From Vitis vinifera (lineage: Eukaryota; Streptophyta; Magnoliopsida; Vitales; Vitaceae): a stretch of DNA of 64,000 nt. Shown here piece after piece: positions 1-53,473 of the stretch (the stretch's first letter is position 1; every line of letters begins with the position of its first letter). The position numbers and the translations under genes are program-made. Location: NCBI RefSeq assembly GCF_030704535.1, contig NC_081818.1, positions 1,315,001 to 1,379,000 on the forward strand, read 5' to 3'. Under the pieces are notes generated by a model that was not told where the DNA came from, searched no databases, and saw only the letters and a program-made list of their open reading frames with translations.

Positions 1-3000
1 GAGCAGATGGGCGGTGTTGGCACAGAGTGAACCTCGCTCCTCCTGTGCTCGAGGCCATATGCAGCTAAGATAGTGTGTGTTGAACTCCTTGCCACGTCCT
101 TGAAGGTACTGAGACCTGCACCCAAGGAGGTGAGACAGTATGAGTATGACCCATTGGATGGTGTTTTGAAATTTTATTCAACATAGCAATGATGCATTAG
201 TAAATGGCAATTTCAGGGCTGCAAATAGTGCAAAATTAATCATGAAACTAACATTCCTTAAGCACTAGTTGCGGGTTAAGTGCATTGAACTCATGTGTCA
301 ATCCCGCGAAAAAACCTGAAAAACATAGTGGGCTGCTACTCTAGGCTTCTGCCAGAACTGGCCATGCACATGTTTCTAGGAGATGGATGGTATCGTGGTT
401 TTTTGAAGCACAAAGTGGTTCAACTTGAAAGCCGAGAATGCAGCCAAGTCCACTTTCAGTAAACAGAAACTCTCACTCCTAATTTTGTAAGTACATTAGG
501 ATGGAAATGTAGCTTCCTATCCTTGCCGAATAAACAGCATTTCTATTGGGACTTCAACCTGAAGCCTTCCACAAGCCCTCTTCAACCCTTTACTGCTTGA
601 GCCAGGCCTGAAGGGCATGTGTGTATATACACAAATGCAAAAGCTAAAATTTCCTTACAAAATCATATAGCAAGTTAATCAAATCTATAAATTAGGGATC
701 CAAACAATCAGGAACATATGCATGTTTATTTGTTTATATCAAAAGGAAGCCAAAGCAAATAAGCAAACATTCAGTGATTGAAGAATATTAAAATCTCAAC
801 CTCTTCATATCAAATACACTTAAACTTATGATGCATGTCATGAATCTCAAAATTGTGGGGCAATAGTGATTGATTATAATGAACTTTGACTAATTATAAG
901 CAATAGATAAGAGGGGTTATTAGATGATAAAACAACTATCTTCTCTTTTTATAAGGCAGGACATCTCTATTAAGTTATTAGATTATATCTTTAACTTCAT
1001 AATCAGTATAAATGCTTATTCCTTTTTTTCTTCCTTTTTTTTTTTCTTTTTTAAATTTAATTTAATTTTATTATTTTCAGGATTTTCAGAAGTTTATGGG
1101 TGCATTATTATCTGATAAATGTTCTACAACTATCTCAACTTTAAATGGTATTAAACATGGATAATTGCCATGTAGCACCCATTGGCATGACTATGTTTCA
1201 GAGACAAGTTTGACAGTAAACAAAAAGTCCTACCAGATTTACTAGGCTGGTACTAGTACAGTATATTATTCACAATCTTTTGAACGTAACAAGATATTGC
1301 TGAAGTGCCCCAAGAAATGCAAGCACACAAAACACATGAATTTCCTATCTTTTTGTATGCAACAAGATATCAGCATCAAAGTAAGAATGCACAGATAAAA
1401 ACTAATATATTTGAAAACACCCATATCTAAGGCTCTTTCCAGCCTCTTCAACTACATTGTCTAAAAAGAAGGAATGGTATGTGAAGTTGAAAAAAGGAAC
1501 TCCGAACTAAACTTACCTAAATCAATATCTTTGGACAAGCTTTTCAAATGGCTTCTAACCATTGATTGCAATTGTTCCTTCACCACATGGAAATGGTTCC
1601 CCTCTCTAACTGCATTAGGGGATACACTACCGTCTGACCTGATGCTTGATCTGCTGCTGCACTGATGGAGTTGCTCATTACCTGATATTGAATTGAATGC
1701 TGAACTGATCCCTACAAGTTCATCCCATAATGTCCCACGGGCAGGGCCAGCAGTAGCAGTAGTAGTTGGAGCCTGGATGTCTTGCCTCCTTGACTGGCTC
1801 AATCTTGGAGAAAGAAGATCCATATTTTGCAATGATGGATAGCGGTTGTCCTGTAAACTTTCCTCTAAAAATGTACTGTGAGATGTCCCAGTTTCTAGTG
1901 CTTTTGTATGTTGAGATGCTGTATCCAAACCCTGATCAATTTGAGAATTTAAAAAATCACTTCCTGAATTGGGAGCTGAATTCCCAATATTTCTAACGGC
2001 CACATGGCTCATTCTATTATTAGAACGGATTTGATGGATCTGACGGTGTATCCACCGTCTCCCTGATAGAGTTGATGCCCCTGATGCTGATACTGGAGAA
2101 GCAGCTTCAGCATTTCTGTATCTAGGAGATATATTGATCCCAATACCTTGAGTGAATGGTGTAGACAACAAAGACAGAGAGGTCACCAAACTTTCCCCAA
2201 TATTTCCAACAGGAGATGGTCTGTCAGACAAGGTGTTCTGTGTTGTTCTGTGATCAGATAAAGGATCCTGGACTTGAGAAGGCCTACAGCCTTCACAATA
2301 CCAATTACCCTCAGGTACTTCCCGTCCAAGACCAACACAATAGGTGTGTGCAGGTGAATCACAGAGATCACACAGTAACATGAGGCCATCATCCCCACCT
2401 TGGTGGCATTCAGTACAGATCACATTCTCATATGGATCAAGATAACCCCTAATTTCTTCCTCAGATGGTAGATAGACCTGTAGCAAAAAAACCATTTTAA
2501 AATTAATGAAAACAATAAAGGCATAAAGCAAAGGGAGTAGACATTGTGGGCCAATTTCTTCTTTGTATATCTGCAATATGGTTTTGGGAAAGCAAAAACA
2601 TACCTGGTCACGCTCTGGAACTTGTATCATCACATCTCTCAAGTCAATTCCTGTGTTTGCTCTTGCAGGCTTGCTGATTGTCATAAACCTCTGCTTGCAC
2701 AACGGGCAACGGGATTCCACTTTCGACCATTCCATGATGCAACCAAAACAAAAATAATGACTGCAACAGTCTAATGTTCCTCGTACCCTTCTTTTTCCTT
2801 CTTCTGACAGACAAATCCCACACACCTGTTTTCCCACCTCATTCTTGACATCCTCAACCTTCTCCTTACCCTTTCTCACTGGAGGCTTTCTTTCTTCCTC
2901 AATGGTTTTAGCTGGCAGAGATGCACTCCTCATATTATTCGTTGATCTTCTGCAGAACTCATCTGCTTCTCTCACCTGCTCCCTCTCTTCCTCAGATATA

Positions 3001-3833
3001 GTGAATTCAAAATCAGATGATCCAGAACTTACAAATTCTGAATCAGATGCTGGAGCCAATCTCCTCTTTCTCTTATGAGATTTTCTCTCTCTCACGACTG
3101 GCCTTTCATCTATGAAATCACCATCATTATCAACCTTGGCTTTCTTCCTCGACCCAGTATTCCTTTTTCTTTTCTTTCTCAAACCCTTCTTCAAAACCTT
3201 GGAATTTCTCTTTGGTTTCCGGCCTTTGGCAAACACCTTCTTCTGTGAAGCTCGGCTGGCCACCCTCTTATTACCGTTTTTCTTCTTTCTTATTGGCGCC
3301 TCTTCCTCTTCATCCTCACAATCCATTTCCTCTGGTGTAAATTCCTCGTCATCCTCATTATAATCCTCATCATAATCCTCATCTTCTTCCTCCTCATACA
3401 AAACTTTTTGTCTCTTCCATGATGTTTTAATCCTATTTTTCCTCCGACCCAAAAACTCCTCTTCCACTTCTTCTTCTTCTTCCTCCTCCTCCTCCTCTTC
3501 ATAATCCTTATCATCGTCTTCTTCATTCAGTACTCTTCTCCTCTTTTTTGATGTTTTGCACCCAATTTTCCTCTGACCAGCTGCACCCATCTTCGCTTTT
3601 GACCTAAACCCCTTCCTCATGTCTTCCTCCTCTTCTAAGCTACATAAACTTTCCTCTACTTCATCTCCTTCAAGAGAATAAGAATAGTCTTCTGAATCAC
3701 CACCATCAGATACTTCAATTTCTTCATCTTCCCCGACTACATAATCCTCATCTGAATCATCTGAACCCTTATCTTTTGACCTAACTTTTCTCTTAAAAAT
3801 ATGCTTACTCCCAACCTTCCCTCCCCTCCCCAT
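1..3833 (-). CDS. RING finger + PHD finger nuclear protein (PHRF1-like), 3' end outside window
   Basis: Coding exons on the minus strand are 3833-2604, 2477-1517 and 115 to beyond base 1; a noncoding exon ends at 4496 and a 5'UTR intron runs 4495-3852. The N-terminal third is very acidic and lysine-rich with Glu/Asp runs. A C3HC4 RING (CGICLSEEG ... CPLCKQRF) lies near residues 336-381 and a PHD finger (CTECHQGG ... CDLCDSPAHTYC ... WYCEGC) near 429-475, followed by a Ser-rich region. RING+PHD proteins of this type are expected to be nuclear E3 ligase or histone-tail readers; the substrate is unknown. The start at 3833 is the first ATG; the open frame extends upstream only to a TTG. The frame also runs through the donor at 1516, but those last 18 codons are intron: the exon at 115 joins in phase and gives FKDVARSSTHTILAA, which I recall as typical of the family's C-terminus. 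About 768 residues are in the window. Confidence 0.87.
2478..2603 (-). other. 126-bp frame-preserving intron between RING and PHD
   Basis: The donor GACCAG|GTATG and acceptor TTGCTACAG|GTCTAT are both canonical on the minus strand. The intron is 126 nt, a multiple of three, and contains no stop, so keeping it would insert 42 largely hydrophobic residues between the RING and PHD fingers. Excision gives a hydrophilic linker, so I treat it as an intron. Confidence 0.8.
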
Positions 3834-4660
3834 CAGTACTTGCACCAAAAACTGTCAAACCCCAATATTATATCAAATCAAACCATATAAATGTCAAGTT
3901 TTTCTCATTTTCTAACCAATACCAGATCAAATCAATGCAGATTTGTTTCCCAATTCTCCAATTTCTTCTTTATTGCTTAAGCCCTAATCAAATGAGGTAA
4001 CAAATTCCCATCAATCTAACATAGAAACACTCTAAGATCCATATCACCCAAAACAAAAACAAAAACAAAAACCAAAACCCCAGATCACAAAATTCAAAAT
4101 AAAACAGTGTTGATATACCCACAAATCCTTTTTATTTCATATCAAATCCAAAGAAAAAAAAAACAAAGATTCATCAATCATATCCAAAATTACCAGCAAA
4201 ACATCAAACGTATGGCATACACTGAGAGATAAAGTCTAGATGAAGATGCGTTTCACCATCCAAATCCACTGAATCAAAGTCAAAAAGACATGCGTTTCAC
4301 CCACCAATCATATTGAAATCATCATCCAAATACACCACCCGAAAAGGGGAAAAAAAAAACTGTTTTCAAAAAGCAAAAATTTTTTAAAAATGAAAATGAT
4401 GCAATCAGAGGTACAGCATATCATATTCAAATTGGGATTTTACAGAGAGAGAAAATTCTAAAAACAGAAAGATAGGGTTTGGCGTGTAGGCATACCTGAG
4501 GGCTGGGAGGAGGGGGAAGAAGAAGAAGAAGAAGAAGCAGCCACCACCGAAACAGATAAAATGTTTCTTTTTGTTTTTGGTTTTTTTTTTTTTTTTTTTT
4601 TTTTCGGTGAAAGTGTTTTCTTTGTTTTTTAAAAACAGTTTTATTATTTTCTGAGTTTCG

Positions 4661-19272: not shown

Positions 19273-21429
19273 ATGGCGACTGCAGAGGATGGAGTATTGG
19301 ATTTCTCTGTGGCTTCTGTCGTTGAGGATGTTCTTCAGCAGCAAGGGAATCGATTAAGTGATGTTGATTTGGCGTCCAGGAAGGCCGAGGAGGCTTGTAT
19401 GATCATTATTTTCCTTACATTTTGATGATTTTCTTTGTTTTATATTTTGCTTCTTTTTTTTTAATCAAATTTAAGATTTTTTTTTTCTTGTTTTGAATTT
19501 TGTTTGTGAAAGTAGATGAAATTCATTTGCATTTGGCATGGTTTTTATTCTTCTTGATGCTTTTTTAGTTTTGATTGAGATTTTCTATCAATTTTGAGTT
19601 CTTTTCAATGAACATAGAAGACATTTATTAGCATTTTGATTTTATTTTCATTGGGTTTTTATCGATTCTAATGTGTTTTCATTTCTCGTAAGATTATTGA
19701 ATTTCTTGAATTCTGTAATGGGATGCCTTTGATATAACTTGGTATCTGTTAGTTTCAACAGAAAATGATTCCCGGAAAAAAAAAATTCCCGGGCTTTTTT
19801 CCCTTCTCTTTTTTGTCCAGGCTTCTGCCACTAAATCGATAATGCACTGCAATTCTTGAAGAAAATTAATCGCTGTTCTTTAGATTGCTTCAAGAAAAGA
19901 TTATTTTTACACTTTAATATGATTATTTGCCGGGAAACTTTTTGGCTTGAAATATTTTCCCTCCAAACAAACAAAAGTTAGTTTTCCTGAAATTTCATTT
20001 TGCAATGATGTTGTAACGGTTCCTTCCCATCCTCCATAGTCACTGTTCCCATGTCATCTTTCTCCCTGCATTTTCAGTAGAGGGTTTCCTTTTCTTTCTT
20101 TTTTTTTTCTTTTAAATTTGATGTTTCATTTTTCCTTTTTATTATGTTGGTAGTGAAGTTTGGCTTCTCTTACTTCCAATTTACTTAAAAGAACTTACAT
20201 GGGAACACTGTTTTGCAGCTTTGAGAAGGTATGAGGCAGCCGGGTGGCTAAGAAGGATGGTTGGAGTTGTTGGAGGTAGAGATTTGGCAGCAGAGCCTTC
20301 TGAAGAGGAATTCAGGCTCGGGTTGCGGAGTGGAATAATCCTTTGTAATGCCCTCAACAAGGTTCAACCAGGAGCTGTGTCAAAGGTATAGTTTGTCCTG
20401 ATTTTTGTTATAGTTTCGATTTTTTTTCTTCATTATTTTCTTTTTCTTTTCTTTTAGTGTTCATGATGTTTATTGCTTATTCGTTATTAGGTAGTGGAAG
20501 GCACATATGATTCTGTTGTTACACCTGATGGAGCAGCTTTATCTGCATTCCAGTACTTCGAAAACGTGAGAAACTTCCTTGTGGCTCTGGAGGAAATGGG
20601 GCTTCCTTCTTTTGAAGCCTCTGATTTGGAACAGGTGAGTTTGCAGCTTCATTGACAAGAAAATGATGGGTTTTTGGTCTTGCAAATTTGCCTCAATTTT
20701 TGGAGTGCGATCGACATTTACTAAGATAAAATTTGGGAATGAGTAGACGATACAAAATGGCCCAAATCCAATATCACTTTTCCATTTTCTTAATTTTCAG
20801 GGAGGCAAATCTGCAAGGATTGTGAATTGTGTTCTGGCACTTAAATCTTATTACAACTGGAAACAAGGAGGAGGAAATGGATCATGGAAATATGGTGGGA
20901 CTTGCAAACCCCCCATCTCTGGGAAACAGTTTGCAAGAAGAAATTCAGAGCCATTCGTGAATTCCTTTTCAAGGAGCTCATCAATAAGTGACAGGTCTCT
21001 AGATGGTTTCTCCAACGAGCAATTCCTAAACAGTGATCTTGGCAATGACCCGAGTGAAATGGTTAGCTTGCTTCCCTATTATAAAGAAAGAGTAGTAAGG
21101 ACTTCCACTTTTGTTTTCTATTTTTATTTATTTTTTGCATTCTGATATGCAGAATACCTCTCGCCCCTTCAATACGCTTGTCCGTGCAGCGCTTTCTGAT
21201 AAGAAGCAAGAAGAAATTCCAAATGTGAGAGTCCTAATTCCTTTTTTGTTAATTACAATACTTAACAAACAAACCCCGTTGGGGTAGGCATCTTGAAGGT
21301 GAATATTTATCACTCTCTGTAATTAGCGTAACACCCAAGGGGGTTAACATGGACAAAACTTTCATTAACTCCCACTGAAGATTATTTCAGACCACAAAAG
21401 GACCCAGATTGAGATATGTATGTATGTGA

Positions 21430-21463
<34 letters not shown>

Positions 21464-24400
21464 ACCATATGATTTGCATCACTCTCCTATGTAGTATAAT
21501 CAATTCAGAAAGATGTCCATGGATCACTTGCCCATCAACTATATATATAGATTTCACTTTTACGAGGAAGATGGCTTCTTCACATCCTTCATGATATGAG
21601 CATTCTCTACTGAGTCCAATTAATCTATTAATTATTATTTATTCTGAGAGAAGCATATTCCTTTCATCAGATTGTGGAATCTTTGCTGAGTAAAGTTATG
21701 GAGGAGTTTGAGATTCGTTTAACGAGCCAGAATGAGCTGGTAAGTGTCGTTTTATATCAGTTTTGTATTATGTGATTATATACCAATACATTTTTTTACT
21801 TAAGGCTCCTTGCGAATGTTTGTGTATGATAATTGTCAAGAGCCAAGCTCGGAGTGAAATTTAAGTCAATTGTCTAATTGTTTCATTTAGAACCAGTTCA
21901 CAAGCACAGGTTGTGAATTTTCTCATTGAGCTATTCACTGAGTTCTTGTCATTGCTTTGGTGGTCTGACAGATGAAACCAACTCCTAAAGATGCAGCTGT
22001 ATCTGGTTTGAACAATTCTCTTTCACGAACTGCTTCAGGTGAACACAATTCTCTTTCAAGATCTGCTTCTGGTGAAAACAATGCTCTCTCGCAATCTGCC
22101 TCAGGTGAAACTAAGGTACAATCTTGGAATACCTCCTATGGTTCATTTTTCAGCATGCAAGTTGATAATGTTTATAATGAGCTTTTGATATTTAACAAAA
22201 CTAAGTGGCATCTCCCTCTGCTGATGCAATGATTAAGATGGAGGAAAAGGCTTCAACACAGATAATAAAAGAGGAGTGCTACAATCAAGATGATACCCAT
22301 GATGAGGAATCAGAAAGGCCATTTCTGAAACAGCAACTGTTGTTTGAACAACAACGGAGAGATCTTCAGGTATTTTACTGCAGTATCATTCTAGCCGCAT
22401 AATTTTATTTTTAAAAAATATGTATAGGTCTAATTTGCTAATTGATAATGATATCCTGTAGGAACTGAAACATACTCTTCATTCTACAAAAGCTGGTATG
22501 CAGTTTATGCAAATGAAATACCATGAGGAATTTGAAAATCTAGGTACTATCTCAGATAAAATTTGTGCATGTTTCTTTGAAGGTTCATAAACTTGGAACT
22601 GTTAATCTTATTTTGACTTTGCTTTATAGGCAACCACTTGCATGGTTTAGTTCATGCTGCTTCAGGATACCGGAGAGTTCTTGAGGAAAACCGGAAATTA
22701 TACAACCAATTGCAGGACCTTAAAGGTAAAATTAGAACTGGCTTATGCCAAGACTTATCAAGATGATGCAATTAAGTTTCTCATCTTCATCATTCTTTTT
22801 ACGTTGAATTAGGAAGTATTAGGGTTTACTGCCGAGTGCGACCCTTCTTGGATGGACAACCGAAGTGTTTGAGCTCTGTGGATCAAATAGAAGAAGGAAG
22901 TATTTCAATCATCACCCCATCAAAGTATGGGAAAGAGGGCCGGAAATCTTTCAATTTCAACAAAGTTTTTGGTCCATCTGCAACCCAAGGTTGTTAAGGT
23001 CTCCATTTGGATGTTCATAAGATCCCCCCACATGTTAGTATTTCTTTTAATCATCCACTTTCATTTTCCTGCAGAGGAGGTATTTTCAGACACCCAGCCT
23101 CTGATTCGGTCTGTTCTTGATGGTTATAATGTTTGTATATTTGCATATGGCCAAACGGGATCAGGAAAAACTTATACTATGGTAAGATTTTCCATATATT
23201 ATAATTCTTAATCATGATGATGATAAGCATTTTGTCACTGGCATGCTATTGATCAATCATATGACTATTTTTTTATTCCTCTTATTGACTTGTGCAGACT
23301 GGACCAAAAGAACTTACAGAGGAAGGCCTAGGCGTGAACTACAGGGCATTAAGCGACTTATTTCATCTCTCAGAACAGAGAAAGGGCACCCTTCACTATG
23401 AAGTTTCTGTTCAAATGATTGAAATTTACAATGAGCAAGTTAGGGATCTCCTTGTGACAGATGGTCTTAACAAGAAATATCCTTTTCTGCTTCATGGCAG
23501 TGGTCTTTTTCCCTATACTATTATGTTTTGTTCAATTGAACTCTTATTTCTAATTGTGTTCTTAACTCCTAAGCACAGTAGAAATCCGTAACAGTTCTCA
23601 GAATGGAATAAATGTACCTGATGCAAACCTTGTACCTGTTTCATCAACATCGGATGTTATTTATCTGATGAACCTAGGGCAAAAGAATCGTGTAGTGAGT
23701 GCTACAGCGCTTAATGACCGAAGCAGTCGCTCTCACAGGTATAGTTAATGTTGTCCTGTCCTACTAGATGTCTTAATTCTGAGCAGTGTCACTTCTTTAA
23801 TTTTGTCTTACAATTCATGGAACCTCTTGAAAGAAATCATCTACAAGATTCTAGTCCTATTGTATGTTGTCTAAACAGATAATTACTTCTATGTGATATG
23901 TATTTGCAGTTGTGTGACGGTTCATGTTCAAGGAAGGGATCTAACTTCTGGAGCAGTTATTCGAGGTTCTTTGCATCTAGTTGATCTGGCAGGAAGTGAA
24001 AGAGTTGACAAATCTGAGGTGACGGGAGCTGGATTAAAAGAGGCACAACATATTAACAGATCTCTATCTGCATTAGGAGATGTGATTGCTTCCCTTGCTC
24101 AAAAAAATTCTCATGTTCCTTATAGAAACAGTAAACTCACTCAACTGCTGCAAGATTCTCTTGGTAAGATTTAATTGTCCTAGCATGTGGACCCTTCCCT
24201 GAAGTGTTGTGACTCTTAATTATGTTTTTGATTGTTGAATCAATCAGGCGGGCAAGCAAAGACGCTAATGTTTGTTCACATAAGTCCCGAGCCTGAAGCT
24301 CTTGGAGAAACAATTAGTACACTCAAATTTGCTGAGCGGGTTTCTACTGTTGAGCTTGGTGCTGCTCGGGTTAACAAAGAAAGCTCAGATGTCAAAGAGC

Positions 24401-25757
24401 TAAGGGAACAGGTGCTTATGGTTTTTTTGTTTCCCCTTTTCTTATTTTGCTTGATATCTTAAGAATGTACCTTCTATGTTTCTCCATTTTCCTGGTATGT
24501 TTTAGAGGGCTCATCTTGAGGCTGCCTCAGCTGATCAATATGTATTCTGTTTGCCTGCCATCAGATTGCTAACCTTAAGGCAGCTTTAGCAAGGAAGGAG
24601 GGAGAATCAGAGCACCAAATGTATTCCAGATCCAGCAGCCCAGAGAGACTCAAAATGAAGTCTCGTGGGTCTTCTCCTTCACTTCCAAGTTTGCGGAGTG
24701 TGGCAGACATATCTGGCAGTCGCAGGCAACCAATGGAAGATGTTGGTAACATACAGGTATACTCACCTTCTAAACAGAGTATTTCTCTCTCCATGAGTGG
24801 TATTCCTTGTTTGTTTGTTTTTTTATTTTCAATACCACTGTCCAATTTATTTGTTGTGTGTACATAAACATCAATTCAACTGCTGCGAATGCCATACTCG
24901 ACCAACATTGGATCACTCCCACTGCAAATTTGATGTAACCCATGGAAAAACTGACTGATTATTAGATGGGAATTCATGTTTGATCTTCTGCCCTGCAGGT
25001 TCGAAACAACTCTGCACTAAAGCCAAGAAGGCAAAGCTTTGATCTCCATGATTTGGCGAAAGCCTCAGCTGCCTGGAAAACTGGCAGTAGTCCTGCGATG
25101 AGCTCCCAAAAGGAAGATGAGGGAGAAATAGGCTCTGGTGATTGGGTTGATAAGGCCATGCTGAACAAGCAATACAATGTAAGTAGAGACAGGAACTCGC
25201 CAGGAAGTTGGGAAGAAGACAACAGACAATTGCCCGAAATGTTTTTCCAAACTCATCTCCCAAACCCCGCAAAGATATACCCTGAACAACCTTTCAATAA
25301 ATTTTCAACAAATCAGAAGGATGGTAGAGACTACGATGGACAGAGGAATCGGTTTGAAGTAGCCACCGATGATTCAGATGAGCTTGAAGCTGCCACTAGT
25401 GATTGTTCTGAGCAAGACTTGCTTTGGCAACAACTGAATCTTCCCAGAGTCTCCAACATTCCTAATGGGTTGGGGTCAAAAAACAAGAGAACCAATTCAA
25501 AGCTAGTAAAAAGCCCAGAAAAAAGGTAATCTGCTTGATTCTCAACTCTTCTATTCAAAAACCTCCAACCATTGCTCTTTACCTCGCCATTTTCATCATT
25601 CTAATGCAATGTCGTGAATTTGTTAATAATTAGGAGCTTAATACCATCATTGGGTACTTCAGCATCACGGAAACTACCCATTGGAATCAGTCCACCATTG
25701 CACAGAAGGCAGGCAGTTGCCGTTGATGGGAAGCAGAGAACTGGGAATGCAAAGTGA
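19273..25757 (+). CDS. KIN14: Kinesin-14 motor with N-terminal calponin-homology domain (1065 aa, 19 exons)
   Basis: Exons: 19273-19396, 20219-20385, 20491-20634, 20801-21061, 21153-21224, 21671-21739, 21972-22104, 22206-22369, 22462-22543, 22630-22725, 22813-22989, 23075-23181, 23298-23476, 23577-23738, 23910-24163, 24248-24411, 24565-24756, 24999-25525, 25634-25757. They sum to 3198 bases with no internal stop. A CH domain (about 45-160) precedes a Ser-rich linker with three SASGE-type repeats, a coiled-coil-like segment, and a kinesin motor from about 437. The motor has P-loop GQTGSGKT (522-529), switch I SSRSHS (near 646) and switch II DLAGSE (671-676). A central-to-C-terminal motor with a CH domain is the plant KIN-14/KCH architecture: minus-end-directed microtubule motors, some of which bind actin. 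The intron at 23477-23576 is U12-type. The exon 7/8 junction is chosen by phase; its acceptor is weak. The 5' leader is GA- then CT-rich (18940-19090). Confidence 0.95.
21429..21455. repeat. (TA)n microsatellite in kinesin intron
   Basis: An uninterrupted TA run followed by TGTATGTATAC lies inside the kinesin intron between exons 5 and 6. Confidence 0.95.
23477..23576 (+). other. U12-type AT-AC intron in the kinesin motor domain
   Basis: No GT donor is available in the right phase. The exon ends ...AACAAGAA and the intron begins ATATCCTTTT, an exact match to the U12 5' splice-site consensus. TTCTTAACT at 23559-23567 matches the U12 branch-site consensus with one difference, and the branch A lies about 11 nt before the terminal AC (23575-23576). 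Joining the flanks gives AA|A GTA GAA ATC CGT (K-V-E-I-R), restoring the conserved motor sequence before NSSQNG. The intron is 100 bp; if retained, translation stops at 23589-23591. Confidence 0.92.
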
Positions 25758-33300: not shown

Positions 33301-36300
33301 TAGGGAGAAATGTGGAATATGTTAATTCTATTTTATTTGTAATAACTTGCCTATCAAAACAAAAAAAAAATTATTTGTGATAAGTCATAAAAAAAATGGA
33401 TCAAAAAAAGGAGAGGGAGAATAAGATATTGACTTGACTAATAGTATCTTTTTTCTTAACAAGTTTGACCACCTGCTATCAGAAAAAAGGTTTAACCAGT
33501 TTAAAGATTATGGACACTGAGGAGAGAGGAAAATGATATATTGGTTGACTCTAGTTAATCATGTGTTATTCTTAACAAGTCTAACCTCCTCTATAGGAAC
33601 GTGGGAGAGAGGAGTAATTTTACAAAGTGGATTCCAAGGGGAGGGACACCAAAATAGAGGAGCATTGGTTATATTAATTAAGCATTACTTCTTAGTATAA
33701 AACCAATAAGAAGGAATGAGAAGAAGGTTAGCCCTTTGGAAAAGACAATATTTGTCAAAGGGCGGGAGAATTACCCTCATTAAAAGTACTTTGGCCAGCA
33801 TACCTATTTACCAATTGTCTCTCTTTCGAATGCCCAAGCTAGTAGCAAAAAGGCTCGAAAAATTACAAAGGGACTTTCTTTGGGGAGGGGGAAGCTTGGA
33901 AAGGAAAATCCACTTAATCAATTGGGAGGTGGTGTGCACTTAAAAGGAGAAGGGGGGTTCTAGGCATTCGGAAGATTGATCTCTTGAACAAGGCCTTGTT
34001 GGGCAAATGGATCTGGAGATTTGCCCTTGAAAAAAAAATCCTTTGGAAGAAGGTGATCGGGGCGAAGTATGGCCATGAGGGTTTTGGTTGGAAAACTAAT
34101 GAGGCTCGCGGAACATTTGGAGTGGGGGTTTGGAAGGAGATTTTGAAGGAGACGAATTGGTGTTGGGATAACATAGGGTTCAAAGTGGGAGAGGGGACCA
34201 AGGTCAATTTCTGGACTGATCAATGGTGTGGTAATGAGGTGTTGTCCCAAACTTTTCCCCAGCTATTTGCCTTGGCGGTCCAAAGGAACGCTACAGTCAA
34301 TGAAATGTGGGATTCTAGCCTTGGTCAAGGAGGTTGGAATATTAGATTCTCCAGAGATTCTAATGATTGGAAGTTGGATGCTATAGGAGAGCTGTTTCAT
34401 ATGCTGAGGGACTTGAGGATTTCTTCAGAAGAGGACTCAGTGATATGGAAAAGAGGGGGTCATGGTTCTTTTCGGATTAGGGATGCTTATAAGCTACTGG
34501 CAGCCCCTAGCGCCATCACCTTCTTGAAAAAGAGCATTTGGGTGTGCAAATGGAGTTGGTGGTTTGCGGTCGAAAGGGATTCCTATTGGAAGCTTATAAT
34601 TGGCACGAAGTTTGGGGTTGGTAGTGGAGGTTGGTGCACTTGCGGGGGTAGGGAGGGCTATGGGGTGGGGCTTTGGAAAGAAATCAGCAAGGAAGGGTTG
34701 TTGTTGCTCAACAATGTTTCTTTTTCGGTGGGGGATGGTAAAAGGGTGAGGTTTTGGAAAGATAATTGGTGCGGGAACACTCCTCTTTGTGAGGCCTACC
34801 CCTCCTTGTTTGATTTAGCGGTTTCTAAAGATGCGAAGGTTGCGGACTGTTGGGACTCAACGGGGGAAGTGGGTGGGTGGAATCCCCGCTTCCTTAGACC
34901 TTTCAATGATTGGGAGGTGGAGGAGGTGGAGAGCTTCCTTCTGATCATTCAAGGAAAGAGGCTGAATGCTGATTTGGAGGATAGGATGGTGTGGAAGGAG
35001 ACGAAGGATGGGATTTTCTCTGTAAAATCCTGTTTCAACTCTCTTGACCACAGCAGTGCAGTCCCGTTTCCTTGGAGAATTATTTGGAGTTCGTTTGTTC
35101 CTTCCAAGGTGGGCTTTTTTGCTTGGGAAGCCTCTTGGGGGAAGGTGCTCACTCAAGACCAACTAAAGAGGAGGGGCTGGAAATTAGCTAACAGGTGCCC
35201 CTTGTGTTGTGATGAAGAAGAGTCGATAAATCACATCCTTATTCACTGTTCTAAGGCGAAGGTCTTGTGGGATCTCTTGTTCTCCTTATTTGGTGTTAAT
35301 TGGGTTATCCCTTTTTCGGTTAGAGACACTCTTTTAGGTTGGTTTGCTCCCTTAAAGGATAAGAAGCGGAGTAAGGTTTGGAGGGCAGCTCCTCTTTGCT
35401 TATTTTGGACGATTTGGAAGGAAAGAAATAGGATAGTTTTTGAAAATGAAGTCCTATCAATTCAAAGATTGAAAAATTCCTTCATGTGTAATCTCTTATC
35501 TTGGGCTAATTCTTCCATAGTTGAAGGCCCCTTTTCCTTGTTTAATTTTGTGGACTGGGTGGGTTCTTGTTGAGGGCTGGTAAGGGTTTGTCCTTTTTGT
35601 TTCTGGTTTTTTTTTGTAGGTGATGCTTGTATACTCCCTGTATACTCTGGGTCGCCTTTTATGCCCCTTTTTATAATATTTCTGTGCGTTTATCTATCAA
35701 AAAAAAAAAAGGTTCCAACCAAAGTTGCTTTTTTGCTTGGGAGGCCATGTGGGAGAAGATCCTAACTTTGGATAGGCTCCAAAGACGGGGCTAGCACCTT
35801 CCTAATCGTTGCTTTTTGTGTGGTTGTGAAGAGGAAAATGTAAATCATATTCTTTTACACTGTATAGTGGTCAGGGTCCTCTAGGAGATCGTCCTTGCCT
35901 TGTTTGGGGCTCATTGGGTGTTCCCAAAGACAGTCAAAGAGGTGTTACTTAGTTGGAGGGGCCCCTTTGTAGGGAAAAAGAGGAAAAGGATTTGGAATTC
36001 CATCCCGTTATGTATTTTTTGGATGGTATGGAAGGAAAAAAATAGATTAGCCTTTAGGGGGGGCTCTTTAGCTATACAAAAATTGAAAAATTCTTTTGTA
36101 TGTAATTTGTAGAGTTGGGCTAGGGTGTATATGGGAGAGGAGTCTTCTTCGCTTTTGGGTTTTTTGGAATGGCTTGCCATTCCTTAAGGGGTGGTGAGGT
36201 TTTTGTTCATGTGTTTTTGTTTCTAAGCTGCTGTGTATACTTCCTGTATGCTTTGTGGCTTTCCGCCCTTTAATATATTTGCGCTCATTTATCAAAAAAA

Positions 36301-39527: not shown

Positions 39528-40157
39528 TCAGTTAGGGGGCACCCATTGTAGCTCAATGCCATAGTTCCATGACTCAACAGTCCGGTCTGGATTGAAATCC
39601 ACCACAGAAGTATAAGCAGTGCACCCACCAACTCTGACCCGAATTCTATGTGACGTCATGGCTGAATCTTTCAAGAAGGAGCAGCACAGAGTGTCTATAC
39701 ACCCACTTTCAGCCTCCACCTTCTCAAACTGCCTACAAGGGCTGACTGAGGAACAATTCAATGGTGACAAAAGAATAGTTTCAGAGCAGTTAAATAACAT
39801 AACAGTGTTATGAGTAGATATGTTGAAGGGAGAGTTCTCATCAAGAAGCAAACCTCCTACATCAAGATCAGAAGAATAACATGTGTTTTTCTGTATGAGG
39901 GGTGGACGTATGATGAACTTATAAGCACTAGGGTTAATGCTGAGGATCTGATAGAAAAAATTTTGCGCTGACAAGAACTCTAGGCTTCCATTGTTACAGT
40001 AAACTCTGTACCTAGGGTTCCCACAATTGTCATTGGTGCTAAGAGGGTATGGAACTTGCATGCTGCCACAGTTAGGGCAGGCTTCAAGTGCAGAAACATG
40101 GCTTATAGAAACAAGCACAAACATGATCAGAACAGACATCATCTCTCTCACATTCAT
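39528..40157 (-). CDS. Secreted WAK-type galacturonan-binding-like protein, no kinase (209 aa)
   Basis: A single-exon frame on the minus strand. The first in-frame ATG is at 40157; the open frame upstream starts only with TTG and is leader sequence. Residues 1 to about 23 form a signal peptide (SVLIMFVLVSISHVSA). The mature part starts with a Cys-rich segment (CPNCGSMQVPYPLS, DNCGNPRYRVYC) like the N-terminal galacturonan-binding domain of wall-associated kinases, then conserved Cys and NCS glycosylation sites, ending GIELQWVPPN. There is no membrane segment or kinase domain, so an apoplastic wall-bound protein is likely. Family members I recall are longer, so it may be a short paralogue or truncated at the C-terminus. 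Confidence 0.78.
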   Translation of the reverse strand: MNVREMMSVLIMFVLVSISHVSALEACPNCGSMQVPYPLSTNDNCGNPRYRVYCNNGSLEFLSAQNFFYQILSINPSAYKFIIRPPLIQKNTCYSSDLDVGGLLLDENSPFNISTHNTVMLFNCSETILLSPLNCSSVSPCRQFEKVEAESGCIDTLCCSFLKDSAMTSHRIRVRVGGCTAYTSVVDFNPDRTVESWNYGIELQWVPPN

Positions 40158-40160
40158 GGT

Positions 40161-40266
40161 TAGAGCTAGCAGGAAAACAGAAGATGAGAAATAATTGGCA
40201 CGAGACAAGCGCCTAGAGCTAGCAGAAAAACAGAAGACGAGAAATAACTGGCACAAACGCCTATTT
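40161..40266. repeat. 53-bp tandem duplication in the WAK-like gene leader
   Basis: TAGAGCTAGCAGGAAAACAG at 40161 recurs at 40214 with a few substitutions, through AAATAA(T/C)TGGCAC. It spans the 5' UTR immediately upstream of the ATG (minus strand), doubling the leader length. Confidence 0.85.
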
Positions 40267-40270
40267 ATGC
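40261..40270 (-). promoter_or_regulatory. TATA-like box of the WAK-like gene
   Basis: The minus strand reads GCATAAATAG about 104 bp upstream of the ATG at 40157, immediately beyond the duplicated leader. This position supports a short leader and the chosen start. Confidence 0.4.
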
Positions 40271-43200
40271 AAATTCACATGAGTCACTTGTATTGACAAG
40301 AAAGAATAAATTATGAGAAGGAAGACTCTAAGGAATTAGAAGAAATAAACAATAGTTTAAAGGAGCACAACAATCCCATTAAGGAAAGAAACTGACAGAG
40401 AATTATTTCTCATTTTAACTTATTTATGTATTTTTTTAATTCCGTTCTTGACACATTCTTTAACACCGGATCCTTGTTGGAATGAGGGGATTTGAGGAGA
40501 AGAAAGTAATTTGACTAAATAAACTAAATTCGATTGTTTGGATGGAACTAGCAAATGGAAAGGAATTAGAGGAACTAGAATACATGTTTGAATTCTACCT
40601 AAAACTGGTGGAACTTGGATGGAGTTGAAGTCTACCACTTAAAAACTTTCCCACATTCCTATCTTAACCTCATTTTCTTGTTAACAGTAAAGGCAAACGG
40701 TGGCAACAGAAAACTCCATTGTATTAAAATCTTCCCTATGTCAAACAAGCAAACAAGAGAAAGGAAACGCAGTCAAATACCTTTTATCTCCTTGCTACTA
40801 GTTAAATTCTTTCCCCTAGATTTGATCCCAGAGTTGAGAAAAAAAATTCAATATCCAATGTGAGTGCAGTTTTCTTTAATTCATTATCATCCAATCTGTA
40901 ACCAGATACATGCCAACGTCTCATTTTTATTAACAAGATCAAGAGAGACCACTGAATATGTTATGACCAATCATAGAGGGAATAGAATAGTTTTCAGCTT
41001 TAATGTCATCTCCATGAGCCTTGAAGCTACTTAGTTTAGATTAGTTGATTGACAATGTAAAAGACCATCAAATCTGATGAATACAAGACCAGATTTGGTC
41101 CACTGTCATCAGACTGCTTAGCAGTCAATAGGACTCCATTGATTGGAATAATTTAAGGTTTCCAGAATAGTTGGTGATACTGGGCACACAAGAAGTTGAT
41201 AGAAAAAGAAGTAATCTTTCAAATAAGATAATAGTCAGCTATCTGATAAATCAACACGAGCTAGACTGTCAAGTAATAAAGGTAAATCAACTGAAGAGTT
41301 TACTTGAATTTCTTAGAACTATATAGTGATCAGAAGAGAACCCATTTCTTAGAATTATAAATTACAGGAAAAGCCGAGGACAAAGTGGTTCAAGCTTCAA
41401 AGAAAATCAATAAACACTACTATGACTCAATGAAACCTTGGATAGGCACATTGGACTATCAAACAGATAACACAAAACATCTTGTGAGTCACTAATAAGA
41501 AAATCCATGCTTCCTATTGTTAACCAAAATACACCTCGTAGCCAAAAGACAAACAGGGCCATAATACCAAATGGAGATACTATTGTACAGATACAACCTA
41601 AAATTCATGTAAAAGAGTAAATAATTTAAAGAAAGGTATGCATAAGTGCTAGCAAGCTGGTCAATTAGTCACCACCATCAGATTTCATCATGAACTGCGG
41701 ATTCCCTGTTTCTGGCTATCAAATGCTTCTGAAGTCGACACCTAACCAGGACAATATGATATAAAGTAAAACAACACACTAATCCCACTTTCCTTGTATA
41801 GAATATTTAGGGATTCTTTAGCCCATGAGGGAATCCCATTTCCTGAAGTGGTGTCTCTCAAATATAAAAAACTAATGGGTTTGAATATAAGAGGAAAGGA
41901 CAAACTGACAAAGGACTAAAGTGTAGGGCTCTTAATCAAACATATTTAGGCCACTAATGAATAGACGTGGCCATGTTTCCTGGGTAAACAAAACTTTAGA
42001 ACTTTATTAGTGCACTATAAACAGTCAGTACAATTATACAGTTAGAAAGTAACAAAACCTAGGTCACATGTGTCAACCTATTATCACTTCGTGGCTGAAA
42101 TCTTTCAGAACTAAATACTAAATAATCTGCAAATCATTGCAGAAAACCAAAGTCTGTTTGAGAGGAGAAATCAAATTAATTAGATTTTTACTTATATCAT
42201 CATGCATGATGTTCAACATAACTTTAACACAAAAACTTTTAATATGTAATAATAGAGTTTCCTAACTCAAATTACTGTGATTCAATCTTTGTATTATCCT
42301 GATCATATCTCAGTTCCAAATTGAATAGCTTAGAAAGCATTTTTAGAAAGAAAAAGATAGATCAGCAAATGCTGAACAACCAAGTCCAACCCAAAAACCA
42401 CTTCATGGGATTGCAGAAGCGTTAATGTAATTTTAATTCGAGGACAGATTAGGAATTACCACCATTCTGTCCATTTTGTCCAAACAGATATCAGATCAGT
42501 AACAGAAATGACTCTCAGATGATTTTTACAACACTCGGTGAAGTAATGCAACCATTCTAAGCTCCCAAGTTCCTAGTTCAAAATGCAGGATTAAAGTTGG
42601 ACTACAATGATAATGGTTACAATCAAAGTTTATTTATTAGAAAAATCAGAGTTAGAAAATATATAAGATAGGAACAGTTGTACGATAAACTATTTATCTT
42701 TTGATATCATGTTTTTTCTTTTATAGGTATCTTTTGATATCATGTTGATGAAAGCAACATCACATATAGGAATCAAAAATTGACAACAGGGTTAGTTTTG
42801 GGTAGTGAGTTGAGTCTATACTATCATATACCTAATTTCTAGAAACCTTTGAGCCTACTTCAAATTCAGGTAAGTTCAAGCAAGTTTGTCAAATCAGAAT
42901 TCCCCAACAAGACTTAAACATGATAGCTCCTTCTTTGATGTGGAAACATGAAAAATGCAGCTTTTCATGGAGCAGCAGAAAAAGAGCCCTATAAATACCA
43001 CAAAACAAGGGGTAAAAAAAAAAAAGACAAACAAACAAACAAAAAAATAACTCTAAAAAGAAAAATAGAACCACCAAGTTATTTTGTAATCCACAAACTA
43101 CAAGGGAAAATCCTAGTTGTAGTTAATTAGTTTGACAAGATTTATTAAAAACAAGCAGGTCATCAGTGATGCCTTGATGAGCTTATTACCATTCACCAAG

Positions 43201-45209: not shown

Positions 45210-45222
45210 CTCCCCCTCAAGC
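45210..45222 (-). other. Polypurine tract
   Basis: The minus strand reads TTGAGGGGGAGTG directly before the 3' LTR, the typical copia plus-strand primer. Confidence 0.85.
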
Positions 45223-48040
45223 TGGAGCATATATGTCATATGCACCAAGCTTGTTACAAATGTATTTAATCCTAGGACCTTTGAGAGATTTAGTGAAGAT
45301 GTCTGCTAGTTGATCATTTGAATTAACAAAACTTGTAGCAACATACCATGATGCGATCTTCTCTCTAATGAAGTGACAATCAACTTCAATATGTTTGGTC
45401 TTTTCATGAAAGACTAGATTGGATGCAATATGTAATGCGGCCTGATTGTCACAAACTAGTTTTATCTGTTCATCTTTTCCAAATCTCAATTCCTGAAGGA
45501 GTTGCCTCAACCATATGAGTTCACATATTGCCAAAGTCATAGCTCGATACTTAGCTTCAGCACTTGATCTGACCACTACATTTTGTTTCTTACTCTTCCA
45601 GGATATTAAGTTACCTCCAATAAAAACACAATACCCTGAGGTGGAACGCTTATCTGAGGGTAAACCAGCCCAATCTGCATCTGTGTAACCAACAATTTGG
45701 GTATGGCCCCTGTCTTCATATAACATACCTTGGCTTGGTGTTCCTTTAATATATCGAAGAATGCGGATCACAACATCCCAATGGCTGTCACATGGTGACT
45801 ATAGAAATTGACTAACCACACTCACAGGAAAAGGGATGTCTGGCCGAGTGATGGTGAGGTAGTTCAGTTTGCCTACAAGTCGTCGATATCTCCTATGATC
45901 TCTTAGAGGCTCCCCCTGTCCTGGTACAAGTTTAACATTTGGATCCATAGGAGTGTTAATAGGTTTACATTCTAACATACTTGTTTTTTCCAAGATGTCT
46001 AAAGCATGCTTCCTTTGTGACATATCCACACTTGAACTGGATTGAGCTATTTCAAGTCCCAAAAAGTACTTGAGTTTGCCCAAGTCTTTGTTTGAAAGTG
46101 GTTGAAAAGGTATTGCTTTAGTCTTTGGATACCCTCCTGATCATTGCCTGTAATGACAATGTCATCCACATAAACTACCAAATAGATGCACTGGCTCGAA
46201 GAGTTGTGATGATAGAAAACTGAATGATTTGTTTCACTCCGAAGCATTCCAAACTCTTGAACAACTGAACTAAAACGCCCAAACCATGCCCGAGGAGACT
46301 GTTTCAAGCCATATAGAGAGCGGCGTAACTTGCACACTAAACCAAACTCCCCCTGAGCAACAAAACCAGGTGGTTGCTCCATATACACTTCCTCGAGAAG
46401 TTCACCATGAAGGAAAGCATTCTTAATATCCAACTGATAAAGAGGCCAATGACACATAGCTGCCATGGAGAGAAATAAGCGAACAGAAGCAATCTTGGCA
46501 ACAGGAGAGAAGGTGTCACCATAGTCACAACCATAAATCTGAGTATAACCTTTAACAACCAAACGGGCTTTAAAGCAATCAACCTGACCATCAGGACCAA
46601 CTTTAACAGTGTAGACCCAACGACATCTAACTGTAGATTTACCAAGAGGTAAAGAAACAAGATCCCATGTGCCATTGGAGTGCAGAGCAGCCATTTCATC
46701 AACCATTGTCTGTCGCCACCCAGGATGAGAAAGTGCCTCACTAGTGCTCTTAGGAAGAGAAATAGAGGATAAAGTAGAGACAAAGGCATAATAGGATGAA
46801 GATAATCGATGGTAGCTCAAAAAATTATAAATAGGATGAGGATTACGAGTAGATCGATTACCTTTCAGAAGAGCAATAGGCAAATGGTTAGTAGATGACA
46901 GGGCCGGGGTAGAAGAAATCAGTGGGACAAGAGGTGAGTCATCAGGTACCTCAGCTGAAGAGAGAGGAGGAGCAACAACACGATGTCGACGATGATAAAC
47001 CTGAAGATGATGAGAGAGCGCATCTGAAAGGGGGGATATATAGGGAAGTGAATACTTCAGAAATGGGAAGAGATTCAAAGGATGAGAAGAATGGAGAGTC
47101 CTCAAAGGTGACATCAGTGGAGAGAAAATAACGATGAGTGTTAGGGGAATAACAACGATAACCCTTCTGAAGTCAAGAGTATCCCAAGAAGATACATTTT
47201 GTAGCCTTGGCGGAGAGCTTGTCCTGTCCAAGTGTGAGAGTATGAACAAAACAAGTACAGTCAAAGATACGAGGAGGAAGGAAATAAAGAGGTTGGGTAG
47301 GAAAAAAGAGGGAATGGGGGATTTGGTCATGTAATATAGATGAGGGCATACGATTAATCAAGTAACGGGCTGTAAGAATAGCATCCCCCCAAAAATGAAA
47401 AAGGAACATGACTATGGAGAAGGAGGGTATGAGTTGTCTCAACAAGATGTCGATTTTTACGTTTAGCAACCCCACTTTGTTGAGGAGTATGAGCATAAGA
47501 TGACTGATGGAGGATCTCATGTTGGGACATAAAAGAAGTAAAGGGTGTAGAAAAATATTCCCGAGCATTGTTACTGCGTAACACTCGAATAGAAACATTG
47601 AATTGTGTTTGGATTTCAGCATGAAATTTCTGGAAAATAGAGAATAACTCAGCTCGATTTTTCATTAAAAGTAGTCAAGTACATTTTGAATAGTCATCAA
47701 TGAAAGTGACAAAATACTGAAATCCTAAAGTAGACCCAATCCAACATGGACCTCAAACATCAGTGTGGACAAGTTCAAAAGGAGACTTTGGCCGATTATT
47801 CAAACACTTTAGGAACGAGACACGAGTATGTTTTCCAAGCTGACACGACTCACACGCAAGCGACGACAAAGTGGAAAAACGAGGGACCATCTTCTAGAAC
47901 TTGGAGAGACTAGGATGACCCAGACGATTGTGAATGAGAAGAGGAGAATCGTTGGAAATGCAAGCTACAGGAGATGAAGGTGACGTGAGGTGATAGAGGC
48001 CTTCCCAAGGCACACACAGGTCTCGGCCAAGGAAGGGAGC
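45217..48040 (-). pseudogene. Copia pol remnant: integrase, reverse transcriptase, RNase H
   Basis: From the 5' side: the GAG-pre-integrase/integrase start reads RLGHPSLSKF (near 47900) and CESCQLGKHTRVSF, then an integrase core through HTPQQSGVAKRKNRHLVE (near 47480), with a frame change around 47450. Reverse transcriptase follows (KARLVVKGYTQIYGCDYGDT, YVDDIVITGND near 46170), with a frameshift near 46080. RNase H follows (IVGYTDADWAG, SAEAKYRAM, VCDNQAALHIA, EKTKHIEVDCHFIRE), after an in-frame TAG near 45800. No gag or protease is seen. It is not a functional polyprotein. Confidence 0.88.
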
Positions 48041-48521: not shown

Positions 48522-49665
48522 CAATGTTTTTAAAGGCGTTTGTGGGGCGTGCCTTGAGGCGAGGCGAGGCGCAACGAAAACGCGTTGAGGCGTTAAAAAT
48601 AAAGCGAAACACCTGAAAGACGTACGCTTTTCTGGTGAGGCGTGATTGAGGAGCGTTTTGATCGCGCTTTTAACGCTTTTCCGGTGAGACGTACGCTTCG
48701 TCGGATCTGATGTGGCAATGAACAGAGATTTAAAAAAAAACCCTAAGTAATCCCTAAAACCCCAGTCCCGACTAAAAACAAACCCAAAACGAAACCCTAC
48801 CTCTTCTAGTCAAGCGGTGACGGAGTGCTCACCCTCGGCGGCGACCAATCGCAACGATCTTCTCCGGCGGCAATCCCTCTCATCTCCAGGTATGTTGCGA
48901 ACTCCCTCTTCCATGGTTTCTCCCTCTTCGTTTCTCTCTCTGCAATCCACATGGGCGTCGGCTCTTCATCCAAATTTTTTTTTTTTTATCAAATCAGATG
49001 TGCTGTATATCTATTCAAGTTTTAAACCCTTTTTTTTCTCTCTCACAACATTTAAATTCTCTCATAGGCTCACAGCCCACACTTCTGGTCCACACTTTTC
49101 TCTCTCTCCCAGTAGGTTTTCCATCTTTTATTTATTTATTTTTTTTTAAATTATCAAATCAGATGTGCCTTTTGTTAATAAGATTTTTTTTTGAAGTTTT
49201 TTATATGTTTGCTTATAGTATCAATAAACAAATATAATTAAAATTATATAAAAGATAATTATTTGTGAATTTTGAATTTTTTATTTCTGGTTTAATTTTA
49301 ATTCTCACACCAATTTTCTTTATTTCATTATTAAATTCCAATTAAAATTTACGTGTATAATTTTTAAACTCCTTTAAAAAAAATTGGTTTTTTTTTTTAA
49401 TTTAAACCAATTAAATTTTGTATTTCATTTTTAAATTTCTTTCAATTGTGCTTTGTTATTATTTTTTAGTCAATTATATTGTTATATGGAAATTTGAATA
49501 TTATTATTGGTGATTTTTTTTAGAATGAGTTCCTCCGATTCGAAAAATTCAAGAAAGGATTTTGTGTGGAAGTATGTGATTGAAGTTTCTGGAGAGCAAT
49601 ATTTAAGATGTAAATTTTGCAATCAAAGATGTACGGGAGGGGTGAATATACTAAAGCATCACTTA

Positions 49666-49673
49666 GTCGGAAC
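49666..49673. repeat. Left target-site duplication of hAT B
   Basis: GTCGGAAC. The uninterrupted sequence, seen at the equivalent place in B (minus, 52419-52412), is GCCGGAAC. The difference is C to T at a CpG. Confidence 0.85.
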
Positions 49674-52600
49674 CAAAGTTTTTAAAGGCGAAAGCGTAAG
49701 GCGAGGCGTTTTTGTGTTCGTGAGGCGAGGCGTAAGCTTTTTGAGCCTTACATTATATAATTAATTAATATTTTAAATTATATAAAATAAAATAGCATAA
49801 ATAAAAACATGAAAACAATTCATTAGAATCATAAAAAAAAACATACTAGTTCCCTACTTTCACAAAAAACCACAACAAATTCATAAAATAGATTATAGAT
49901 TCAACTATACTAATAGTTTCAAACTTTAACAAAAAGCCATAACTAAGTCATGAAATAGAAAATAGAGTCAACCATAATAATAGTTCTAAACTTTTACAAA
50001 AAATCCATAACTAAGTCATGAAATAACAACTAGAGTAAATTGTTTCAACTTAAATCCTCCTCTCCAAGGTCATCATCATCCTCATCCAATGTATCAATAG
50101 TAGGAAAATGTCCACTATCATGTATCCCCATTTCATCTAAATCTTCATCTTCATCAATTGGTGTCAAATTCAATTCCTTCTCTTTGCCTTTGCCTCCACT
50201 TGTACCTAGCTAAAGTATTAATTATGTGTAAATATTAAAAGTTTTTTTTATTAAATTTAATCAAATTTATGATTTCAATTTTTGAGTACTTACTTGGTAC
50301 TTCATTATGTTTCCTTTTGTAGGAATGTGAAGAAACCATATGATCCGATGATGCTTGCGTCTCTTGGGAGTTGGATGACACAACTCTAATGGCATCAACA
50401 TTGAATAATTCATTATCTTGAAGCCAACAAAGATCAAGGGGGAGGAGGAGATCTTCTTTTTCCGCAATCCATTCATCATCGGAATCAATCTCCTCTACCA
50501 AGATTGGATCAACATTTTGTTTCCTTTGTAGACTTCGCTCTCTCAATCTAGTGTTGTACCTTACATATACTAGAGCATTCAACCTTTGATGTTCAAGTCT
50601 ATTTCTTTTTCTTTTTTGTATGGATCTACAAATAATAAAAGAAACAATTTTATGTGTTAAAATGAAATAAAGTTCTCTAACATTGAAATAGAAATATATG
50701 TATAAAAATTTACAAAAATAGAAGTATTACCGATTCAAATGTGCTCCAATTTCTTTCACATCCCGAAGCACTACAAGTAAGGCTAAGGACTCAAATAGCA
50801 AACTTTTGCAACTCCGGTGTTGAACCCCCAAAACACATCCACCAACTTGTAGGACTTCTTAATGTTCGAGAATCAATTGCAATACGACTCCCAAATTCAC
50901 CCATTGCTTGGCCATATGAGTCCAATTGAATGTCAGCTTTTAAACGTTCTTGATAATCCAACATCGTATCCATGCATTCAAATAATCCCTTCCTCACTTC
51001 ATCAACATTAGAGAACTTATCTCCATACCGCAATTGAGGATTAAGATAATAGTCTGCTGCATGTAAAGGTCGATGAAGTTGCGAAGTCCATCTTACATCA
51101 ATTTTTCTCCAAATTGGGCCATATTTTCTCTCCATGCCCCGACAATTAAATGCAATCTTCTCCTTAGCTGAATCCATCAACTCATAAATATAACCCATGG
51201 CTGGTCTTTCCTCTGAATTAACCTCTCTCAAGACACTAACTAATGGAACAGTGGTCTTTATGCAAAAAGCAACATGAGGCCAAAAATTTGGATCAAACAA
51301 CACTGTACTTCGAGTTTTCACACCTTCTATCTTTTTAACCCATGTGCTTGAACACCATTTTTCCGAGGAGAACATTGCTATAAGAGCTTGCTTTTGATTA
51401 TAAAGACTTTGGAGAGTAAGAAATGCAGTAGCAAACTGTGTAATTGCTGGACGAATAAGTTCATGATTTTTTGTAAATGTTCTCATCAAGCTAAGAACCC
51501 AAGTATGCCCATATATAAACTTCACAACTTGCCTAGCTCGAGAAAGTGTAGTAGCATGAACATTTAGCTTTCCAATATCCTCCAACATCAAATCAATGCA
51601 ATGAGCAACACAAGGAGTCCACCACAATCTACTCTTTTTTTCCATAAGCCTCATTCCAGCATTCACATAATTAGAGGCATTATCAGTGATGACTTGCACA
51701 ACATTCTCCTCTCCAATTTCTTCAACCACCTCATCAACATATTTGAACATCAATTCCCCATTTTTTATTGTATCAGAAGCATCAATTGATTTCATAAACC
51801 AAGTGCCAGCAGGACTATTCACCAAAAAATTGATAAGACACCTACTTTTTCCATCTGTCCAACCATCTGACGTAATTGAACATCCATATTGTTTCCAAGC
51901 TTTTTTGTGATCTTCCTTAATGATACTTAGGTCATTCACCTCTTCTTTAAGAATCCATGTCCTCAATTCGTGCATAGATGGAGGCTTAAACCCGGGCCCA
52001 AAGTTTGCAACAATGTCTATCATAGGAAACCAATAAGGATCATTCACAGTGTTAAATGGGAGACCTTTTGAATACATAAACCTACCAATTTTTCTACACA
52101 CTTCCTTCCTTTCTTCTTGCTTCCACTTTGAATTCAAAGTACTTTGTCTAAGTTGTGAAGTGGTAAATTTATCCATGGGTTCCCTAGGAATAGGTTCCCC
52201 ACTCCCACTTACACTCCCACTCCCACTCCCACTCCCTAATGTCCCTATTGTTTTAGACAAGGCACTTTCATGCATTGAAGTTGAACCCATACCAATTTCT
52301 TGGAGCAATTCATTTCTCTTCGTTTTTTTATCCTTAAAATTAGCCAATGCCTCTTTACATTCCAATCTAGCATCTTCACTAACTTTGTTGCATGGTTTCA
52401 TACCATGATGAGTTCCGGCTAAGTAATGCTTTAGTCTATTCACCCCTCCCGTACATCTTTGATTGCAAAATTTACATCTTAAATATTGCTCTCCAGAAAC
52501 TTCAATCACATACTTCCACACAAAATCCTTTCTTGAATTTTTTGAATCGGAGGAACTCATTCTGAAAAAAATCACCAATAATAATATTCAAATTTCTATA

Positions 52601-53473
52601 TAACAATATAATTGACTAAAAAATAATAACGAAGCACAATTGAAAGAAATTTAAAAATGAAATACAAAATTTGCTTGGTTTAAATTAAAAAAAAAACCAA
52701 TTTTTTTTAAAGGAGTTTAAAAATTATACACATAAATTTTAATTGGAATTTAATAATGAAATAAAGAAAATTGAGGTGAGAATTAAAATTAAACCAGAAA
52801 TAAAAATTCAAAATTCACAAATAATTATCTTTTATATAATTTTAATTATATTTGTTTATTGATACTATAAGCAAACATGTAAAAAACTTCAAAAAAAAAT
52901 CTTATTAACAAAAGACACATCTGATTTGATAATTTAAAAAAAAAAAAAATGAAAAACCTACTGGGATAGAGAGAAAAAAGGGTTTAAAACTTAAATAGAT
53001 ATACAACACATCTGATTTGATAAAAAAAAAAAAAAAAAAAGATGAAGAGTCGACGCCCGTGTGGATTGCAGAGAGAGAAACAAAGAGGGAGAAACCATGG
53101 AAGAGGGAGTTCGCAACATACCTGGAGATGAGAGGGATTGCCGCCGGAGAAGATCACTACGATTGGTCGCCGTCGAGGGTGAGCACTCCGTCGCCGCTTG
53201 ACTGGAAGAGGTAGGGTTTCGTTTTGGGTTTGTTTTCAGTCGGGACTGGGGTTTTAGGGATTACTTAGGGTTTTTTTTTAAATCTCTATTCATTGCCACA
53301 TCAGATCCGACGAAGCGTACGCCTCACCGGAAAAGCGTGAAAGACGCGATCAAAGCGGGCCTCACCAGAAAAGCGTACGCCTTTCAGGTGTTTCGCTTTA
53401 TTTTTAACGCCTCAACGTGTTTTCACTGAGCCTCGCCTCAAGGCGCGCCCCACAAACGCCTTTAAAAACATTG
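49674..53473 (-). mobile_element. hAT transposon B (inner), 3.8 kb, minus orientation
   Basis: Termini are CAAAGTTTTTAAAGGCG (49674) and CGCCTTTAAAAACATTG (ending 53473), inverted repeats shared with A. The 8-bp flanks GTCGGAAC and GCCGAAAC derive from one octamer, consistent with hAT integration. B is closely related to A throughout, including noncoding ends. Confidence 0.93.
50045..52560 (-). pseudogene. hAT transposase of element B, with stop and frameshift
   Basis: ATG is at 52560 (MSSSDSKNSRKDF), and exon 1 would run to the donor at 50731, exon 2 from 50625 and the last exon to 50045. The BED finger is intact (CKFCNQRCTGGVNRLKHYL), followed by a Gly-Ser repeat, the DUF659-type core and the C-terminal region. 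An in-frame TGA at 50793-50791 replaces the Arg CGA seen in A (FAI-stop versus FAIRALN), a CpG transition. An A-rich tract near 50605-50618 differs in length from A and shifts the frame in exon 2. It is therefore unlikely to make full-length transposase. Confidence 0.9.

Follow-up and report, generated by a model that had tools for sequence, protein, structure and literature searches.

A predicted U12-type AT-AC intron within the motor domain of a grapevine KCH-type kinesin gene

We analysed a 64,000-nt stretch of Vitis vinifera DNA (the window) and found that intron 13 of a predicted KCH-type kinesin-14 gene is very probably an A-type U12 (minor-spliceosome) AT-AC intron, as judged from its sequence. 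The 100-nt interval, read directly at 23477-23576 (+), starts with ATATCCTTTT and ends AAGCAC, and the second A of its branch-point sequence TTCTTAACT (23559-23567) is position 23565, 11 nt before the intron end. The first-pass annotation had pointed to this start, branch point and AC end as hallmarks of a minor-spliceosome intron, had placed the interval inside a kinesin motor domain and had held that its removal restores the conserved motor sequence; all three readings were borne out. Papers are cited here by PMC accession.

The KCH-type host gene

The gene model was built by hand, with the start codon and exon borders predicted from the DNA and the frame open over all joins. The end of exon 7 was set at 22104 (CAG closing the exon, GTGAAA opening the intron) from frame and consensus, and a full frame results. 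The features used below are as follows.

19273-25757 (+): KCH-type kinesin-14 coding sequence, 19 exons, 1065 aa (hand-built model; open joins and Pfam)
23298-23476 (+): exon 13, ending GGTCTTAACAAGAA, phase 2 (direct reading and gene model)
23477-23576 (+): predicted U12-type AT-AC intron 13 (sequence read, frame, pair scan and shuffles)
23477-23484 (+): 5' splice site ATATCCTT, 8/8 to the U12 donor signal of PMC2426677
23559-23567 (+): branch-point sequence TTCTTAACT, first eight letters 7/8 to TCCTTAAC, second A at 23565
23575-23576 (+): 3' splice site AC, 11 nt past branch A 23565
23577-23738 (+): exon 14, residues 592-646, with the switch I stretch NDRSSRSH at 638-645 (gene model)

Pfam placed a CH domain at residues 47-164 (E = 8.5e-13), Microtub_bd at 425-584 (E = 1e-43) and a Kinesin motor at 445-764 of 1065 (E = 4.5e-109), the last spanning codon 592, which intron 13 splits at phase 2. 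KCH kinesins are described as combining a CH domain with a motor placed internally, and an N-terminal CH domain and an internal motor are common to the 1065-aa model and to the kinesin-14s OsKCH1, OsKCH2 and the Arabidopsis KCHs (PMC7921805, PMC5852081). On these two domains, the predicted product of 19273-25757 is assigned as a plant KCH kinesin.

Joining 23476 to 23577 keeps a single frame across a 31-residue motor stretch within the continuous 1065-aa reading frame; the junction codons are AA/A GTA GAA (slash at the join), and NDRSSRSH lies wholly within exon 14. The five phmmer alignments shown for the motor part all extend across this junction. Among the best 60 of 154 matched sequences, the top solved motors were entries for KIFC3, KCBP, KIFC1, NCD and KAR3, which we take to be kinesin-14s.

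Scanning the motor part over bacterial and archaeal contigs gave 39 matched stretches that reduced to one locus (L001, 49% identity), and three stretches matched in viral contigs yielded no locus. The match to L001 spans query residues 57-123, short of the intron 13 junction. This locus (L001:4-192), a kinesin-like fragment, lies at one end of a contig that is recorded as a Planctomycetia MAG, and is possibly a eukaryotic contaminant.

Several other features were recorded in the window. Ten inverted-repeat pairs at 48561-56157, the longest with arms of 1623 nt that are 98% complementary, flank a pair of open frames that face each other, 50794-52587 (-) and 53408-55174 (+); each has DUF659, and the latter has a hAT dimerisation domain as well. 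Copia-like retroelement remains lie at 45220-47674 (-), with an RVT_2 match within 46050-47357 (E = 4.8e-58) and no Pfam match for the frame 45220-45798. A 551-codon open frame at 33918-35570 (+) with zf-RVT (E = 3.7e-23) is a LINE-like remnant, and a 797-codon stop-to-stop frame at 1464-3854 (-) matches RING and PHD fingers and contains long acidic runs. The frame at 39531-40274 (-), with a GUB_WAK_bind domain (E = 2.7e-09), may belong to a receptor-like kinase gene.

U12 signals and their chance expectation

The donor ATATCCTT at 23477 matches, at all eight positions, the donor signal that PMC2426677 gives for U12 introns and conforms to [AG]TATCCTT, with which none of the other 17 introns of the model, all GT-AG, begins. 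TTCTTAAC, the first eight letters of TTCTTAACT, matches seven of the eight positions of the U12 branch signal TCCTTAAC, quoted in the same paper as lying 10-15 bases upstream of the junction. The spacing from A 23565 to the AC at 23576 is 11 nt, within the 11-13 nt given as the optimum for U12 introns (PMC3584512), and the phase-2 position is in keeping with the tendency of U12 introns to avoid phase 0 (PMC7367187, PMC10639083). The branch signal alone is non-specific, because one of the 17 U2-type introns of the gene (intron 3) carries a branch-like match too, beside an ordinary donor. Rfam returned no minor snRNA at gathering score within the 64-kb window.

The background for chance occurrence was 300 dinucleotide shuffles of the window. 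The octamer ATATCCTT carries no meaning by itself, because it occurs twice on the two strands against a shuffle mean of 4.6. For a strict pattern (ATATCCTT, T[TC]CTT[AG]AC no more than 500 nt later, and AC 9-14 nt past the branch A) the window has one match and the shuffles 0.047 on average; relaxing it ([AG]TATCCTT donor, AC or AG ends) leaves the window at one match and raises the shuffle mean to 0.12. A looser branch pattern admits a second site at 59928, with the other ATATCCTT of the window; no open frame of at least 90 codons covers that stretch, and it was dropped as a U12 intron for want of coding support. The stronger argument for 23477 over chance is that its signals fall where a junction restores the frame within a conserved domain.

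Across 121 plant genomes, about 0.06% of splice-site pairs are AT-AC (PMC6310983), in line with the rarity that the first-pass annotation had supposed. IAOD holds 269 Arabidopsis U12 introns, 26% of them AT-AC (PMC7367187), so a single such intron is rare per window yet expected per genome, and intron 13 adds one case to the plant U12 AT-AC introns already known. It has the same donor, branch signal, distance and non-zero phase as the Arabidopsis introns of this class in IAOD and ERISdb, and no difference was seen in those features.

Alternative splice-site pairs

Beyond the AC at 23576, which the sequence allows, we considered all donors in 23298-23599 and acceptors up to 23659 that leave an intron of at least 60 nt. 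This pair scan gave 94 stop-free in-frame pairs: 12 GT-AG, 15 GC-AG, 42 AT-AC and 25 AT-AG. The first-pass annotation had maintained that the phase admits no GT-AG alternative, a claim refuted by the 12 GT-AG pairs, besides the 15 GC-AG ones. Candidate sites were scored with matrices built from the other 17 introns of the gene, whose own sites were scored leave-one-out; with 17 introns only, these scores are rough. Three sites define the alternatives discussed below.

23572-23573 (+): alternative AG end, giving an AT-AG intron of 97 nt that ends 8 nt past the branch A (in frame, one residue extra)
23464-23465 (+): weak GT of an in-frame GT-AG pair with AG 23578, product 1060 aa (pair scan and matrices)
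23439-23440 (+): weak GT of the best-scoring in-frame GT-AG pair, with AG 23601, minus 21 motor residues (pair scan and matrices)

It is unlikely that the same U12 intron ends at AG 23573 instead, or that both ends are used as a tandem acceptor, which would place LNKNTVEIR rather than LNKKVEIR in a product of 1066 aa. Such an end is in frame with the donor and branch point unchanged, and human A-type minor introns with AT-AG ends exist (PMC8280824), but it falls only 8 nt from the branch A, short of the optimal 11-13 nt, and AT-AG termini are reported to be disfavoured (PMC3584512). Non-canonical ends also account for only about 4% of orthologous plant minor introns, with AT-AA making up almost 75% of such ends (PMC10639083). 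Pairing the U12 donor with AG 23578 or AG 23581 truncates the protein at 595 and 594 aa, respectively. Protein length leaves the 3' end undecided, because loop length at the junction varies among five aligned solved relatives, one being a residue shorter, two a residue longer and two longer by at least three. The Arabidopsis KCH loop is presumably of the shorter length, which counts against the AG at 23573.

Seven of the 12 GT-AG pairs cost the protein 5 to 56 residues, and the other five leave it with a net 6 to 10 residues encoded by the intron. Their strongest donor has a score of 3.1, a value that 16 of the gene's 17 other donors exceed. By score sum the top pair is 23439-23601, whose acceptor, at 3.4, is ordinary rather than weak, because it exceeds 5 of the gene's 17 acceptors; the most conservative is 23464-23578, which loses GLNKK and has an acceptor score of -1.3, under 16 of the 17. 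A dosage switch, in which weak minor splicing would lead not to a null but to in-frame fallbacks (GT-AG 23464-23578 or AT-AG 23477-23573), is very unlikely. If it did operate, minor-spliceosome capacity would tune both the properties and the amount of the motor, through a loop minus five residues or plus one.

That the interval is simply a U2-type GT-AG intron, such as 23464-23578 or 23439-23601, with the ATATCCTT match accidental, we regard as extremely improbable. Both forms keep the frame free of stops, and acceptor 23601 lies inside the range of the gene's own acceptors, but their donors (3.0 and 3.1) each score under 16 of the 17 others by the same rough matrices, as does acceptor 23578 among acceptors. 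Moreover, 23439-23601 would excise a conserved strand region (RDLL) that has an aligned counterpart in KIFC3, and neither form accounts for the U12 donor, the branch signal and their spacing. Excision of an AT-AC intron by the major spliceosome has a precedent in the known U2-type AT-AC class (PMC6310983, PMC8280824) but is just as improbable here, given the full U12 donor match and a U12 branch signal at the right distance.

Retention, splicing factors and significance

With intron 13 retained, the frame stays open throughout the intron and reaches a stop in exon 14, truncating the protein inside the motor as the first-pass annotation had anticipated.

23589-23591 (+): TAA stop reached on intron 13 retention, 629-aa product (translation of the retained form)

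The 629-aa product keeps the P-loop GQTGSGKT (522) and ends before switch I (NDRSSRSH) and switch II (DLAGSE, 671). Downstream of this TAA the model has five exon junctions, so the retained RNA would be expected to decay.

Under the favoured reading of a U12-type AT-AC intron, we infer that the donor ATATCCTTTT would be recognised by U11 and then by U6atac, that TTCTTAAC would pair with U12, and that the minor spliceosome would make the AA/A GTA GAA join at the AC 11 nt past the branch A. Successful splicing of intron 13 would then give the full-length KCH kinesin of 1065 aa. Failure would lead to the stop at 23589 and a 629-aa protein with a P-loop and without switch I and II, and most of the unspliced RNA should stay in the nucleus or decay.

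In human cells, A-type minor introns require CENATAC; their basal retention is relatively high, and they are outcompeted by minor GT-AG sites in direct competition (PMC8280824). In plants, the counterpart of CENATAC's partner TXNL4B is DROL1, mutations of which are cited as impairing AT-AC U12 introns in Arabidopsis (PMC11039992). Intron 13 has AT-AC ends like the CENATAC-dependent human introns, although organism and genes differ, and a similar dependence on A-type factors would be expected. By this analogy the KCH gene may depend on CENATAC- or DROL1-type factors.

In the openly licensed literature we found no plant kinesin reported to have a U12 or AT-AC intron, and absence there is no proof. 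The word 'intron' occurs nowhere in the KCH papers PMC7921805 and PMC5852081, which give no intron classes; a kinesin survey treats intron presence and number (PMC1434745), and none of four KCH gene codes looked for appears in the excerpt of PMC4892727. An alternative-3'-splice-site event is common to genes of cucumber, melon, papaya and peach that bear the name kinesin-like KIFC3 (PMC8547070); for the intron 13 junction this is a lead only.

For annotation, a gene finder restricted to GT-AG introns would misplace the border between exons 13 and 14. For the biology of the family, intron 13 adds a likely target of the minor spliceosome in a motor that links actin and microtubules. Should KCH genes share this intron position, minor-splicing mutants would be tied directly to phenotypes in plant cell division or pollen.
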